A stretch of 64,000 nucleotides of DNA, taken from a virus. Shown piece after piece: positions 18,971-63,428 of this stretch; the stretch's first letter is position 1; every line of letters begins with the position of its first letter. Below the pieces are notes generated by a model. It saw only the letters and a list, made by a program, of their open reading frames with translations. It searched no databases and was not told the DNA's origin. A program made the translations under genes and the position numbers. The DNA lies in IMG/VR virus record IMGVR_UViG_3300033145_000529, positions 84,198-148,197 of that record; one strand, written 5' to 3'.

Positions 18971-20323
18971 ATGCTTTATAATTGTGATTGTTTAAAAGGA
19001 ATAAAAACTCTTAATGATAACAGTGTTGACTTAGTAGCCACCGACCCACCTTATGGTATAGGGTTTATGGGTAAGGACTGGGATAAGGCGTTACCTGATA
19101 AAGAGATATGGGCTGAGTGTCTGAGGGTGTTAAAGCCTGGAGCATTTGCCTTTGTAATGAGCATACCGAGAAGCGACTGTCTGAGCAGGATGATTATCAG
19201 CCTAGAGGATGCTGGATTTAGGGTAGACTTCAGTCCGATATATTGGGTTTATGCGTCAGGATTTCCAAAGGCAAAGAATATAGGGAAGGCGGTGGATAAG
19301 AGAATGGGGGCTGAGCGTGAAAGAACCCACCCTGATAATGAAAAGAGGTTTAAGGAATACAAAGAGCAAGACGGTAATGAGCGGAAAACTTTTGGTGAAT
19401 TAGATACTATGCCACTGACACCCCAAGCCAAAGCCCTAGATGGTAGTTATGGTGGGTTTCAACCCAAACCCGCAGTAGAAGTAATAATAGTCTGTATGAA
19501 GCCCTTGTCTGAAAAGACCTTTGTTGACCAATCCCTGAAGAACAGGAAGGGTATAACTTGGCTGGATGATTGTAGGATACCGTACGGTGGTGAAACCCCG
19601 AATATGGGTGGCAGGAAGAATGCCAAGATGGGTGGTGACCAACCCTATGGCTTCAAAATAGAGGGCAGACCTGATACACCAAATACAGTAGGTCGTTTCC
19701 CAGCCAATCTATTAGTCTCAGATGATGTGCTGAATGATGGGGGAGTAACAAGGAGTGGATTTATGAAGGGGAAGCATATAGCACCCAATTCTTATGGTGG
19801 ATTTAACACTCCTACTGAAACTCAGACCTACCCCGATTCAGGCTCATTTTCCCGCTACTTTGATTTAGATAAATGGTGGGAAGAAAGGGTAAAGGAACTC
19901 CCCAAACCTGCTCAACAGACCTTTCCATTTCTAATAGTCCCCAAAGCTAGTAAAAGTGAGAAGAATAGGGGGTTAAAAGGTGGTTCAGGTAGCAATACAT
20001 ATAATCGCAAGTGCCTTAATTGTGGCAAGTGGGAACGCAAACAGGGGTTGTCTGATAACTATACTTGCTATTGCGAGAAGCCAGATTGGGAACAACCATC
20101 GGGCAACAATCATCCCACAGTAAAACCCATCAAACTAATGTCTTACTTAATAACATTAGGCAGTCGTGAAGGTGATATCATTCTAGACCCGTTCTTAGGT
20201 TCAGGAACTACAGCAATTGCTTGTGAGATTGTGGGTCGTGATTGTATCGGTTATGAAATAGATAAAGGCTATTTTGATATAGCGATAAAAAGAGTGGAGG
20301 CATTTAAAAGTGCAAGAAATTAG
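18971..20323 (+). CDS. site-specific DNA methyltransferase (N4/N6, beta type)
   Basis: 450 residues. The catalytic DPPY occurs near residue 28 (VATDPPYGIGFMG) and the SAM-binding motif DPFLGSGTTAIAC is near the C-terminus, the order of beta-class enzymes. A CLNCGKWERKQGL..CYCEKP insert may bind zinc. The target base (N4-C or N6-A) cannot be told from sequence. With the Mom-like genes it may guard phage DNA from restriction. Confidence 0.9.
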   Translation: MLYNCDCLKGIKTLNDNSVDLVATDPPYGIGFMGKDWDKALPDKEIWAECLRVLKPGAFAFVMSIPRSDCLSRMIISLEDAGFRVDFSPIYWVYASGFPKAKNIGKAVDKRMGAERERTHPDNEKRFKEYKEQDGNERKTFGELDTMPLTPQAKALDGSYGGFQPKPAVEVIIVCMKPLSEKTFVDQSLKNRKGITWLDDCRIPYGGETPNMGGRKNAKMGGDQPYGFKIEGRPDTPNTVGRFPANLLVSDDVLNDGGVTRSGFMKGKHIAPNSYGGFNTPTETQTYPDSGSFSRYFDLDKWWEERVKELPKPAQQTFPFLIVPKASKSEKNRGLKGGSGSNTYNRKCLNCGKWERKQGLSDNYTCYCEKPDWEQPSGNNHPTVKPIKLMSYLITLGSREGDIILDPFLGSGTTAIACEIVGRDCIGYEIDKGYFDIAIKRVEAFKSARN

Positions 20324-23144: not shown

Positions 23145-23173
23145 TTGACTTGCTTAAAGGCTTATGATATAAT
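23145..23173 (+). promoter_or_regulatory. sigma70-type promoter P5
   Basis: TTGACT, 17-base spacer ending GGCTTATGA, then TATAAT. The first in-frame ATG of the next gene (23172) overlaps the -10 itself, so the transcript from P5 would lack that start; read-through from the tRNA operon may supply it. Confidence 0.8.
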
Positions 23174-23931: not shown

Positions 23932-24008
23932 GGGTGTGTAGCTAAATTGGTTAAGGCACTGGTCTCTTAAACCAGACATTAAGGGTTCGAGCCCCTTCAC
24001 ACCCACCA
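23932..24008 (+). tRNA. tRNA-Lys(CTT)
   Basis: Acceptor GGGTGTG/CACACCC, anticodon loop CTCTTAA, discriminator A and encoded CCA. Second lysine acceptor. Confidence 0.92.
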
Positions 24009-24091
24009 AAGGACATAAGTAGTTCCTATTAAATAACACAGAGGTCTACTTCGGTAGGCTTCTGTATTGAAAAAAGTACTACTCGTCCTTT
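24008..24091 (+). ncRNA. structured RNA element 1 of a covarying tandem pair
   Basis: AAAGGAC (24008-24014) pairs with GTCCTTT (24085-24091), then AGTAGT (24018-24023) with ACTACT (24078-24083). Inside, a 12-bp hairpin is capped by TTCG. TTCCTATTAAA is unpaired and recurs in the next element. No known class recognised; could be a riboswitch-like leader of the 653-aa gene. Confidence 0.55.
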
Positions 24092-24103
24092 AATAATCGG
24101 TAT

Positions 24104-24160
24104 AATGGCATAAGCAGTTCCTATTAAAAAGTTGATTGAACAAATTTACTGCTCGCCATT
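24104..24160 (+). ncRNA. structured RNA element 2 of a covarying tandem pair
   Basis: AATGGC (24104-24109) pairs with GCCATT (24155-24160) and AGCAGT (24113-24118) with ACTGCT (24148-24153). Compared with element 1 the middle base pair changes T-A to C-G on both strands, a compensated change. It shares the TTCCTATTAAA loop. It lies just before the ATG at 24176; TTCCT could pair with GGGAA in the ribosome-binding region. Confidence 0.55.
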
Positions 24161-24175: not shown

Positions 24176-26137
24176 ATGGAGTCAACAATTAAATTATTTA
24201 GAGCACTACCAATAACAACTAAGGAAAAGAAGTTTGATGAAAAATTGATGGAAGCAACCATTAAGCATGGCTTTGTATTTGCACCAGAGATTGTTGCTAA
24301 CTATTCTAACTATGATGAATTGATTGAAAAAGTTGAAAGATTAGTTGGGGTAAGCTCTGAGCAAATGAATAGTTCGTTCCACAAGGCTTGGGCTAAGGTT
24401 AGAAACACAGGTATGGAACAATTAGTAGTAGAACAGATAGCACACTATCTGACTACCTATGGCAAAGAGAACCCTGAAGCATATCTGATTGAAAAGGGTA
24501 TACAGTGGGGTGTTGATGACCTTTCTGATAAGGTGTCAAATCTAGATGACATAGAATTAGATAAAGTCCAAGATGCTAACTATGTTTATATCCCTAACGA
24601 GGTACTTGACATACCAGATGTAGAGTTGGATACGATTAAACTTATCGTAATCAAAGGATACACAAAAGCTGAACTAAAGGGCAAGCTGCTTGCTTTGTTA
24701 GGACTTGGAGTTGCTTTGGGGGAAGATACGATACAAGCTGTTGTAGAGGTAGCCACGTTTGTCGGAGTTGATGACAAAGATATTGAAAAGGTTAAGAACA
24801 AGGAAGTAAATACCGCCTTGTATGACTACTTAGGTCTTTTTCCAGAAAATCCAGTTGCGTTTTTAAGGTTTATTGTTTTCAAAGCAGCAAGTAAAACGCT
24901 TTTGATAAAAGATTATAATTTGATTCAAGCGATTAGGGAAAGCAATAACTTGAATGTAATTAAACTATTTGATGACTACGAAAAGAAATATGGATTAGAA
25001 AGGTTAGCTGAGATATTTAATAGGTTCAAACCACTTTTCTTAGCTTTTAGAACAAATGAAAGACTCAAGGTAGTAGTTAATAGGATAAGAAGACTTGCTG
25101 TGAGATACCACAAACCTCTTCCAGAAGATTTCCTTAACACTGTTACAGCTAGGGTAGGAAATAGTGAGAAGATAACCCAAGGTAAATTACAATCTGAACT
25201 GAGGAGAGTAAATGTCTTCAGGAAGATACGATTAGCTTATGCACTAAAATTTAGGACAAAAGACGTGGATTCTATTTTATATAGGATAAGGAATGGTAAG
25301 GGATATGCTACTGAGTTCACCTTCGGCAATCAGACTGAAGCTCAAAGAGTATTGGACATTGTATTAGACTCAATTGCCCGTGATGTTAGTAAGAATGTAA
25401 AGGACAAGAAAATATACATTCCAGAGCATATAAATTATAGTCTACCCGCAACTGAGAAGCAGTTTACTGGTAATTTCCCATCAGGAACTTGTGTGTCACT
25501 AACTGATAATATGATTGCTGGTATCAATTGGCATAACGTTAAACACAATAGGATTGACCTTGACCTGTCTTTATTATCAGTTACAGGTAAAATTGGTTGG
25601 GATTCTTCTTATAGAACAGAAGAAGGTGATGTGCTATTCTCTGGTGATATGACTGATGCTTGTAACGGAGCATCGGAACTTTTCTATGTTAAGAAGCAGA
25701 CTAAGAAATCGTTTATAATATTCGTTAATTACTATAATTTTGACGAGGCTATAAAAGTACCGTTCAAGATATTAGTTGCACATGAGGCTACTAAGAATCT
25801 TAGAAAAAATTATATGGTTGACCCTAATAATGTTGTAGCAATTACCGAATCAAAAATTGACCAGAAGCAAAAAATACTGGGGTTGCTAATCGTTACAACA
25901 ACAGGAAGCAAGTTTTATTTTGTTGAGGCAAATATAGGCAGGTCAATAACATCAAGTGGTACTGAATTTGCCACACGAAGCAGAAAGTATCTACTAGACT
26001 TTTATGAAAACACTATTATGTTAAGTGATGTTCTTACTAAAGCTGGTGCTAAACTTGTTGGTGACAGGGATGAAGCAGATATAGACTTATCACCAGAAAC
26101 GCTTGAAAAGGATACCATATTAACTATGCTTAGGTAA
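24176..26137 (+). CDS. large protein with possible TerD-like domain, 653 aa
   Basis: The largest protein of the array. Residues about 1-400 are mainly helical. Around 455-520, RIDLDLSLLSVTGKIGWDSS, DVLFSGDMTDACNGASELFY, FIIFVNYYNF recalls the D-x-D and GD-x-T pattern of TerD-type calcium-binding beta sandwiches; this is tentative. GGGAAGGGAAAG precedes the ATG, and two structured RNAs lie in its leader, so expression is probably controlled. Role unknown. Confidence 0.75.
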   Translation: MESTIKLFRALPITTKEKKFDEKLMEATIKHGFVFAPEIVANYSNYDELIEKVERLVGVSSEQMNSSFHKAWAKVRNTGMEQLVVEQIAHYLTTYGKENPEAYLIEKGIQWGVDDLSDKVSNLDDIELDKVQDANYVYIPNEVLDIPDVELDTIKLIVIKGYTKAELKGKLLALLGLGVALGEDTIQAVVEVATFVGVDDKDIEKVKNKEVNTALYDYLGLFPENPVAFLRFIVFKAASKTLLIKDYNLIQAIRESNNLNVIKLFDDYEKKYGLERLAEIFNRFKPLFLAFRTNERLKVVVNRIRRLAVRYHKPLPEDFLNTVTARVGNSEKITQGKLQSELRRVNVFRKIRLAYALKFRTKDVDSILYRIRNGKGYATEFTFGNQTEAQRVLDIVLDSIARDVSKNVKDKKIYIPEHINYSLPATEKQFTGNFPSGTCVSLTDNMIAGINWHNVKHNRIDLDLSLLSVTGKIGWDSSYRTEEGDVLFSGDMTDACNGASELFYVKKQTKKSFIIFVNYYNFDEAIKVPFKILVAHEATKNLRKNYMVDPNNVVAITESKIDQKQKILGLLIVTTTGSKFYFVEANIGRSITSSGTEFATRSRKYLLDFYENTIMLSDVLTKAGAKLVGDRDEADIDLSPETLEKDTILTMLR

Positions 26138-28593: not shown

Positions 28594-29112
28594 ATGAAAG
28601 ATTATTATAAGATTTTAGGTGTGGCTAGGGACGCTTCTCCAGAGGAGATAAAAAGGGCATATAGGAGACTAGCGAAACAATGGCATCCTGATGTAAATAA
28701 ATCTCTAGAAGCAGAAGCGAAATTTAAAGAAATAAATGAAGCTTACGAATCTTTAACGTCAAAGAGAACGCTGAATGGTACATTTGACCCGTTCGATGTT
28801 TTCTTCAGAGAGTTTAGTTCTTTTGGTGGCATCTTCAGTGGTCAAAATATTAATGTAATTAGAACAAGAAGGATAAGCTTATCTGTTGATTGGTTAACCA
28901 TGATTTTAGGTGGTGAGATTGTTGTTAATTTGGATGGGGAAAGAATTACATTGAAAGCTCCCCCACTATCTCAAGCAGGGCAAACAATTCACATTAAAGT
29001 TTATGGTGTTGATAACTATTTTACTTTGCAACCAAATTTACCAAGGTCATTGAGCGAGGAACAGAAAAAGAGTCTGGAAAATTTGAGAAATACATTGAAA
29101 GATGAATACTAA
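28594..29112 (+). CDS. DnaJ-type co-chaperone, 172 aa
   Basis: J domain at residues 1-65: [23 protein letters not shown] motif in WHPDVNK, and the YESLTS end. No Gly/Phe region or zinc fingers; the C-terminal ~100 residues form one substrate-binding-like beta domain. It likely directs host DnaK to a phage protein. AAAGGAG follows the tRNA CCA directly. Confidence 0.85.
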
Positions 29113-29617: not shown

Positions 29618-29692
29618 AGCGGGGAGATTGTTGGTTATCCGTTAGCTCTCATAAAGCTAACTACGTGGGTTCAATTCCCACCTCCGCCACCA
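29618..29692 (+). tRNA. tRNA-Met(CAT)
   Basis: Anticodon loop CTCATAA in stem TAGCT/AGCTA. Acceptor AGCGGGG/CTCCGCC with an A-C mismatch at the first pair. It lacks the three G-C anticodon-stem pairs of initiators, so elongator Met or an Ile (modified CAU) is likelier. CCA shares its A with the next ATG. Confidence 0.82.
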
Positions 29693-30063
29693 TGAAAATA
29701 TTTATATTAGATGATATGCCTAATAGACAACAATTTTTATCTTGTGCTATGTCTAAAATATACGGTGGTGATTCACATTGTATAGTTGCAGATAGTTTTA
29801 GTAATGCTGTCAAGGTATTTGAAGAACATAAGGAATTTGATATTATGTTTTTAGACCATGATTTGGGTGGGAAGATTTATGTTGATTCAGAAGACCCTAA
29901 TACTGGTTATCAAGTAGTTAAATACATGGCAGAGCATGACATTAAAGGTAAAGAAATTATTGTGCATAGTTTAAACTTTGCGGGAGTTCAAAATATGTTA
30001 GCAATATTACCAAAGCACGCAAAATATGTACCATATACCATTTTACACTCTTCAAGATTATAG
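29692..30063 (+). CDS. cyclic-phosphate-processing receiver-like protein, 123 aa
   Basis: MKIFILDDMPNRQQFL, DIMFLDHDLGG, TGYQVVKYMAEHDIKGKEII, VHSLNFAGVQNM fit the receiver-like 'cREC' family, which I recall being linked with RNA-end 2',3'-cyclic phosphate processing. The start ATG shares its A with the CCA of tRNA-Met. In a tRNA array it could assist tRNA repair, but that is inference. Confidence 0.72.
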   Translation: MKIFILDDMPNRQQFLSCAMSKIYGGDSHCIVADSFSNAVKVFEEHKEFDIMFLDHDLGGKIYVDSEDPNTGYQVVKYMAEHDIKGKEIIVHSLNFAGVQNMLAILPKHAKYVPYTILHSSRL

Positions 30064-61995: not shown

Positions 61996-63428
61996 TATCT
62001 ATCTTTATAAATTCCAGCTTCACGTAACTTGTTCACATCGAACTCGGCTTCACGCTGTGTCCAGCAAATAAACCGCATTTTACAAGCATCACATTGTTCA
62101 GGGTAGTTTTTGCACATTATGGGTATCTTTTGTGTACCCCTTCCATAGACATCACTAGTTTCTTCAACCGCCATAATCAGCCGACCCTGACCATTAACAG
62201 TCAAACCCTCATCCCGCAGAGCTATGATATGTTTGCACGTTCTGTTTCTACGAGTATTAAATATCCAAGATGGACAATTGTGAACATAGGCATTAGAAAT
62301 TATATAGTGTGGTTTATCATTGACCTCACAATTATAAACGTTTCCAATATATTTGTAACGTTCAATAGACCTAATAGATGTTGCAATCCAATCAGGCATA
62401 GAGTAATAATGTGTATTTGCCCCCTTTATTGCAAGACTACCACAATATTGAACTTTTGCGTTGCCAGCTCTTCCATTTATAATATAAGTATTGCGACTGT
62501 TACTTAAACACAAGGTATACAACTTGCCAAATCTTGCAGCAAGTAACTGAATTTGTAACGCTAGTGTCCTACTAGTAGTAGAAAACCTAAAACCAGAATT
62601 TGACCCATCCCCTTTAAGATATGCTTCTAAAAATGAGGTAGCTAATAATTCCTCTCCCATCAATATCCAATTAGGTATTTTCTTGTTCTCTGCACCACGA
62701 CCAAAGTGGTCACTCATAAATCGTGCTAATGGTTCATTGTGTATTGTTAAACGATAGCAGTTACCTACAACTTCGTCTGAAGTGCCAATACCCATAGAGT
62801 TGACATAAGATTGTACTTGTAAAGCATCACTTCTATCTTTATTGTTATTAAAATCTAGCGTAAACCCATTGCTATTTTTACTTCCCTCAGCAACATACCA
62901 ACCACACAACATAGCAAAATCCTGCGATAGTTTTATTTGTCGTGTACCACGATTCCGCCACTCTGGTGCTTTTACATACTTTGTCAAATCAAACATTTTG
63001 ACCACGTGTGTAGTTTTAAGTCGTGGTATCAAAAGATAATTACTTTTCTTCCTATTATGATACTCCAATTGTCCAGAAAGCTTCCACAATGGCTCGCTAA
63101 ATCTGTAGCCATTTCCATATCTATAATGTTCTACCACAAAAAATGGGTGTTCACATGTACAGCTAATTGGCAACAACCCAGTGGCTTTTATGCAAAGCAA
63201 ATCCTCATTTACTTGTCGTGTTAATACTTGACTTATTATATCTGTTTTAATATTGACTACGTTATCCCCGACAACTAAATCTTCAATGTTCTTGTTTGCC
63301 CCAAGGATAAATGTACCTTCTGGAAAACAATTACAACTAAACATACCATGTTCATCTACTTTAATAGTATAGTGCTTGTTGGGATTAGATTGAGACGAAA
63401 TTTCTGCAACAAAATTATACTGTTTCAT
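61995..63428 (-). CDS. SWIM-domain CRF-tag protein split by an intein, 477 aa
   Basis: N-extein residues 1-33 end FSCN. The intein is about residues 34-384: it starts CFPEGTFILG, has HPFFVVEHY (block B His), the endonuclease motifs LCGWYVAEGSK and LEAYLKGDGS, and ends AYVHN. C-extein starts CPSWIF..RTCKHI. Joining gives FSCNCPSWIF and C-x-C..C-x-H, a complete SWIM zinc finger. The C-extein carries the CRF tag CDACKMRFICWT. Mature protein about 126 aa. Confidence 0.88.
   Translation of the reverse strand: MKQYNFVAEISSQSNPNKHYTIKVDEHGMFSCNCFPEGTFILGANKNIEDLVVGDNVVNIKTDIISQVLTRQVNEDLLCIKATGLLPISCTCEHPFFVVEHYRYGNGYRFSEPLWKLSGQLEYHNRKKSNYLLIPRLKTTHVVKMFDLTKYVKAPEWRNRGTRQIKLSQDFAMLCGWYVAEGSKNSNGFTLDFNNNKDRSDALQVQSYVNSMGIGTSDEVVGNCYRLTIHNEPLARFMSDHFGRGAENKKIPNWILMGEELLATSFLEAYLKGDGSNSGFRFSTTSRTLALQIQLLAARFGKLYTLCLSNSRNTYIINGRAGNAKVQYCGSLAIKGANTHYYSMPDWIATSIRSIERYKYIGNVYNCEVNDKPHYIISNAYVHNCPSWIFNTRRNRTCKHIIALRDEGLTVNGQGRLIMAVEETSDVYGRGTQKIPIMCKNYPEQCDACKMRFICWTQREAEFDVNKLREAGIYKDR

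Follow-up and report, generated by a model that had tools for sequence, protein, structure and literature searches.

The bacterial Y RNA YrlA combines a basal stem, which binds the Ro60-like protein Rsr, with a tRNA-like domain (PMC8394870), and a bacterial Y RNA superposes on tRNA with a circular permutation (PMC11472068; structure 6CU1). RtcB is the usual neighbour in rsr-yrlBA-rtcBA operons (PMC7790460), and Ro60-type RNA-binding proteins occur in jumbo and Thermus phages (PMC7824862). Here we describe two tandem RNA elements directly upstream of a gene for a 653-amino-acid (aa) protein in the virus record IMGVR_UViG_3300033145_000529 of IMG/VR. They lie in a stretch of 64,000 nucleotides (nt), hereafter the window, that covers positions 84,198 to 148,197 of the 148,197-base record. 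The best explanation of this locus, and in our judgement a likely one, is that the elements are stand-alone Y-RNA-like RNAs bound by a Ro60-like protein with a helical and a TerD domain.

The resemblance to YrlA and YrlB with Rsr/Ro60 (RYPER) lies in tandem RNA genes beside a partner gene and in a terminal helix combined with a modular effector. Many relatives of the two elements carry a circularly permuted tRNA domain, as YrlA does, and RtcB is found in the neighbourhood, as in rsr operons. Unlike Rsr/Ro60, the partner is not a TROVE protein by sequence and has TerD in place of the vWA domain. Unlike the RNAs of Ro60 loci, the elements have their own helix motif (an AHA bulge opposite a C, and UCCU), which was not found at Ro60 loci, and unlike YrlA they occur in a second topology, an intact-order tRNA with the helix in its anticodon loop, which we have not seen described. 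The simple copies may resemble YrlB. Chen et al. 2014 (RNA) reportedly found that many bacteria and phages have Y RNAs in the vicinity of Ro60, possibly overlapping with part of the present set.

The tandem elements and their relatives

Both elements lie on the plus strand and follow a common order: stem 1, an AUA bulge of 3 nt, stem 2 of 6 bp, UCCUAUUAAA, a loop, the second strand of stem 2, a single C and the second strand of stem 1. Element 1 (24008-24091; fold and sequence comparison, covariance model R1 E 7.8e-10) reads AAAGGAC-AUA-AGUAGU-UCCUAUUAAA...ACUACU-C-GUCCUUU, with stem 1 at 24008-24014/24085-24091, the bulge at 24015-24017, stem 2 at 24018-24023/24078-24083 and the C at 24084. 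Element 2 (24104-24160; sequence comparison, R1 E 4.4e-15) reads AAUGGC-AUA-AGCAGU-UCCUAUUAAA...ACUGCU-C-GCCAUU, with stem 1 at 24104-24109/24155-24160, AUA at 24110-24112, stem 2 at 24113-24118/24148-24153 and the C at 24154. The gene for the 653-aa partner protein (24176-26137, plus strand) has its ATG 15 nt after the end of element 2. A sequence-only reading of this stretch had described tandem elements with the same layout and a fixed TTCCTATTAAA, and had noted that both sides of stem 2 changed together. The sequence of both copies bears this out, the change being one U-A to C-G pair, and stem 1 also differs between the elements with its pairing preserved.

Both copies are simple ones that lack a tRNA domain. 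Within element 1, the loop forms a predicted 12-bp UUCG hairpin (24038-24065, plus strand) at the position where relatives hold the tRNA-like domain. Element 1 folds far more stably than shuffled sequence (z score -6.3, 0/200 shuffles), element 2 alone reaches a z score of only -2.5, and the two window copies by themselves would be weak evidence. In the 148-kb phage record, R1 detects the two copies only (E 5.9e-15 and 1.1e-9; next E 0.26). A further candidate at 62331-62366 of the window, which is without UCCU, is a chance match, and R1 does not report that site.

The set of protein homologues comprises Synechococcus phages S-CRM01 and S-CBWM1, gut Phage Phass-1, 78 IMG/VR loci and 80 of 180 bacterial/archaeal contigs. 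The bacterial and archaeal bearers are mostly Chryseobacterium, with others from Winogradskyella, Tenacibaculum, Erysipelotrichaceae, Selenomonadaceae and Ktedonobacter; they also include metagenome-assembled genomes labelled Lokiarchaeota, Methanobrevibacter and others, labels that may hide phage contigs. Homologues with similar pairing, whose absence the sequence-only reading had named as part of what would refute it, were looked for and turned up as a large class next to genes related to that of the 653-aa protein. Of the 153 homologue genes, 140 have elements within 1.5 kb upstream (1-7 per gene, on the same strand as the gene); a strict scan counted 367 in all, against 64 matches in Markov-generated sequence of about equal total length.

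Pairing was assessed in a non-circular way on 5' halves selected by motif. A partner for both stem 2 and stem 1 is present within 175 nt for 206 of 253 such halves, compared with a mean of 57 (maximum 70, 200 trials) when the 5' halves were swapped between loci, and with 0/28 motifs in the minus-strand control. Across 59 aligned diverse copies, pairing holds in 99.5% of the cells, and changes on both sides are seen at 10 of 11 base pairs; these copies were picked as pairing, which makes the percentage circular and the variety of pair types less so. Pairing among the relatives is beyond chance. The model is also specific: significant R1 matches in six multi-Mb bacterial genomes are grouped at one locus per genome.

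The conserved helix consists of stem 1, a bulge of 3 nt (AHA) that faces a single C, stem 2 and then an invariant UCCU, and the loop that it closes varies from 12 to 143 nt, tRNA domains included. As in Y RNAs, a terminal stem with an internal bulge is formed by the 5' and 3' ends. Acceptor and T arms within a larger RNA also recall tmRNA and other tRNA mimics, although, unlike tmRNA, most copies are only about 45-125 nt long and no tag open reading frame (ORF) was seen. An Rfam scan of the elements and the leader gave nothing at the gathering threshold (best chance match E 2.9), and the simple elements are not covered by any family of Rfam 15; a search with RF01053 was uninformative, as no control matched. 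The open-access papers searched, a subset whose silence is weak evidence, describe neither these RNAs nor an association of TerD with Y RNAs. The elements are members of a large, apparently undescribed class of structured RNAs that accompanies a single protein family in phages as well as bacteria.

Two variations were observed within this class. In Phage Phass-1 (L006 5663-6573), six tandem elements adjoin the tmRNA of the phage, at a distance of about 1.3 kb downstream from the partner gene. Divergent copies at L081 (4496-4558 and 6706-6769), L072 (4620-4761) and L070 (4610) have a stem 2 that ends in CU rather than GU, and stem 1 of the L081 copies is longer (9 bp). The CU-ending copies are perhaps a subfamily with its own specificity.

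tRNA look-alikes in two topologies

A tRNA-like domain was seen in many relatives. In one topology the loop holds a permuted domain (T arm, acceptor closed by a short loop, D arm), as at L002, L004 (S-CRM01), L050, L053, L090 (Ktedonobacter) and L122. The Rfam YrlA model (RF02553) aligns over its full length with L002 2426-2538 (E 1e-7, 39 bits) and L004 2122-2236 (E 3e-4, 35.9 bits), and partially with L090 (E 1.5e-5). At 36-40 bits the relatives' copies do not reach the gathering threshold of 69 bits; as a positive control, RNAs beside genuine TROVE/Ro60 genes of Bacteroidota also score 35-45 bits. The YrlA model recognises the permuted copies as well as it does RNAs beside real Ro60 genes.

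About 50 further copies contain a tRNA in normal order (acceptor, D arm, T arm), with the same helix, itself permuted (ACNNNN-C-GC...GC-AHA-NNNNGU-UCCU), taking the place of the anticodon loop. These copies are found in phages (L008, L010, L014, L025, L039, L042, L044 and L051) and in bacteria (L091-L093, L095, L101, Chryseobacterium and L144); two further candidates, L028 and L029, are artefacts. The acceptor has 7 bp in nearly all of them and the T stem is present, with the acceptor stem in place in the minimum free energy folds of 48/48 distinct sequences. At the canonical anticodon-stem positions, 26 distinct strand pairs form a mean of 4.04 of 5 pairs, against a mean of 2.91 (maximum 3.54, 2000 shuffles) when the strands are swapped. 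Judging from secondary structure, both topologies would put the conserved helix at the end of the anticodon stem of a tRNA-shaped body and would make the same three-dimensional object.

At one Winogradskyella locus (L104 4459-4698), two helix-bearing tRNA-like genes are adjacent in tandem. The first keeps, beside the inserted helix, a CUCAUAA stretch resembling the anticodon loop of tRNA-Met, which may show the origin of the helix-bearing tRNA.

The partner protein and true Ro60 loci

Phage Ro60s (9l5y) are annotated TROVE/Ro60 proteins, whereas the 653-aa family matches nothing significantly in Pfam, NCBIfam or PHROGs, and searches of the protein against PADLOC and PDB sequences likewise gave no significant match. 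An AlphaFold2 model built with 80 relatives (pLDDT 93.7, pTM 0.90) predicts a mostly helical N-terminal domain (residues 1-430) followed by a C-terminal domain (about 432-606) with the TerD beta-sandwich fold (3ibz, Z 12.2, 2.8 A over 142 residues). Several TerD chains lead the structural match list for the C-terminus, and its acidic DLD and GD positions are nearly invariant in the family alignment. The C-terminus is thus modelled with a fold of the tellurite resistance/stress Ca2+-binding type where Ro60 has a vWA domain. Unlike the usual TerD, it shares a polypeptide with a large helical domain and has a link to RNA genes, and in the few neighbourhoods inspected we noted no further Ter genes.

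Modelled alone, the N-terminal domain reaches a pLDDT of 90.4. In VIA-align comparisons it aligns with phage Ro60 9l5y (Z 6.1 over 157 residues), Xenopus Ro60 1yvp (Z 6.0 over 242 residues) and 2i91 (Z 5.7 over 247 residues); among the matches listed, only the animal Ro60 entries 1yvp and 2i91 run along almost the whole domain. This resemblance to the HEAT-like helical ring of Ro60 is weak; we favour a protein that would work like Ro60. A possible paralogue was also observed: the ORF that follows the Selenomonadaceae homologue (L098 4971-8754) appears to encode a second copy of 596 aa.

The elements do not lie beside a TROVE/Ro60 gene, and in this they differ from Ro60-associated Y RNAs. PF05731 is found neither in the protein or the phage record nor in 8 bearer genomes or records, and at five true Ro60 loci R1 had no match better than E 0.92. 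In three genomes of Weeksellaceae type, related to Chryseobacterium (G068, G080 and G106), a TROVE gene and the TerD protein are both encoded, at separate loci. In the regions fetched from these genomes, R1 matches only at the TerD locus, and YrlA-type matches occur at the TROVE locus where tested; the Ro60 and TerD-protein systems are therefore distinct in both RNA motif and protein. Near a true TROVE/Ro60 gene, two Chryseobacterium-related genomes have a Flavo-1 RNA (RF01705; L178 4738-4815 and L189 2436-2523). An RtcB RNA ligase gene is directly upstream in more than 40 Chryseobacterium loci and is near at L017, L134, L095, L144 and L040.

Alternative explanations and proposed function

The sequence-only reading had suggested a tandem riboswitch or protein-binding leader, with UUCCU of the second element paired to GGGAA near the ATG. 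Its notion of tandem protein-binding RNAs is probably right in spirit; the riboswitch or leader part finds no support. The pairing is possible in the window sequence, but UUCCU is invariant in all copies, the distal ones included, and a GGGAA-like partner is present at just 28/139 loci, so that we rejected it as a conserved switch involving the Shine-Dalgarno region. A cis-acting autoregulatory leader, in which the TerD protein would bind the proximal hairpin in its own mRNA and block translation while the other copies serve as decoys or extra operators, would agree with the strand that the upstream elements share with the gene and with the placement of the proximal element, which ends a median of 19 nt before the ATG (30 nt or less in 105/139). 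It does not sit easily with as many as 7 copies per gene, with copies about 1 kb upstream or lying downstream of the gene (six in Phass-1, two at L011), with tRNA-like modules that have acceptor and T arms, or with a Shine-Dalgarno pairing that is not conserved (an SD-like sequence in 49/139, and in only 5/57 among L108-L164, mostly Flavobacteriia), and we regard it as unlikely. We give very little credence to a tandem metabolite riboswitch: the tandem arrangement, the conserved unpaired UCCU and AHA bulge and the position before an ORF are what such an element would show, but no Rfam riboswitch matches, no expression platform was seen, the loop is variable and includes tRNA domains, and the same protein family is downstream in phages and unrelated bacteria.

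A further alternative is a variant of the favoured explanation and concerns ancestry: the system could be a true, very divergent Ro60/Y RNA pair, whose N-terminal domain is a TROVE ring without detectable similarity and whose vWA domain was exchanged for TerD. The alignment of Ro60 structures along most of the N-terminal domain, the common YrlA-like module and the RtcB neighbourhood speak for it. Against these stand the missing Pfam TROVE match, an hhalign probability of about 1% to a TROVE profile that is thin (small alignment, Neff 2), the failure of R1 on the RNAs of true Ro60 loci and the coexistence of both systems as separate loci in the same genomes. We hold this ancestry to be possible and do not favour it. 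Several observations also count against stand-alone Y-RNA-like RNAs with a Ro60-like partner. In the strict scan 13 of the 153 homologues have no upstream element, no tRNA-like form was found in the window phage's own record, and the short distance of the proximal copy from the ATG also fits a cis element. On the protein side, there is no sequence similarity to TROVE (no match at E up to 1), Foldseek found nothing at E <0.001 for the whole model against the PDB or for the N-terminal domain, and the Ro60 matches, with Z of about 6 and rmsd (root-mean-square deviation) of 4.8-6.9, are in a range that possibly means just a common helical arrangement. RNA binding, expression and function are moreover what we infer.

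If the elements encode small structured RNAs that stand alone and act like bacterial Y RNAs, these RNAs would be transcribed together with the tRNA array and the protein gene. The conserved helix would dock on the helical/TerD protein to form a ribonucleoprotein (RNP), and the loop insert would be the effector module, namely a hairpin, a permuted tRNA, or a normal tRNA joined through its anticodon stem. This module could gate the protein or recruit nucleases, repair enzymes or enzymes that recognise tRNA. In tRNA-rich phages, and in bacteria where RtcB is close by, the system would probably serve to handle RNA that is damaged or structured, tRNA above all. Given where the proximal copy usually ends, it may add an autoregulatory effect. 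We lean towards the view that a second RNP system of the Ro/Y type, which shows no detectable relation to Ro60 in sequence, is spread across phages and bacteria. Its helical TerD protein would be partnered by RNAs in which a protein-binding helix displays a tRNA body, and this in two topologies: the tRNA is either permuted and enclosed in the loop of the helix, or normal, with the permuted helix in place of its anticodon loop.

The surroundings in the window are rich in tRNA genes. The gene for tRNA-Lys(CUU) (23932-24008, plus strand) directly abuts element 1, and the two are probably in one transcript. Upstream of the array of tRNA, elements and protein gene is a promoter-like TTGACT-17-TATAAT (23145-23173, plus strand; 11/12 consensus match, extended -10), a candidate based on consensus match in a region whose total of such sites is not above that of shuffles. 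Altogether 27 tRNA genes lie on one strand at 12080-35493, with small ORFs between them; this region also includes an N6/N4 DNA methylase (18971-20323), a DnaJ-domain protein (28594-29112) and a 132-aa protein with a cyclic-phosphate processing receiver domain (29665-30063; cREC_REC, PF20274, E 3e-15), which possibly takes part in RNA end repair.

Ro60/Y RNA particles are ancient and prominent in medicine, and the understanding of them is still poor. A parallel system built on another protein and another helix motif would allow their common logic to be tested, that is, a tethering helix with a tRNA mimic as effector. The tRNAs with the helix inserted at the anticodon suggest a route from ordinary tRNAs to YrlA-type permuted mimics, and the occurrence of the system in tRNA-rich phages and beside RNA repair genes of the RtcB type points to a setting of conflicts over tRNA cleavage. 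If this is true, a large protein family without a Pfam entry would gain a function.
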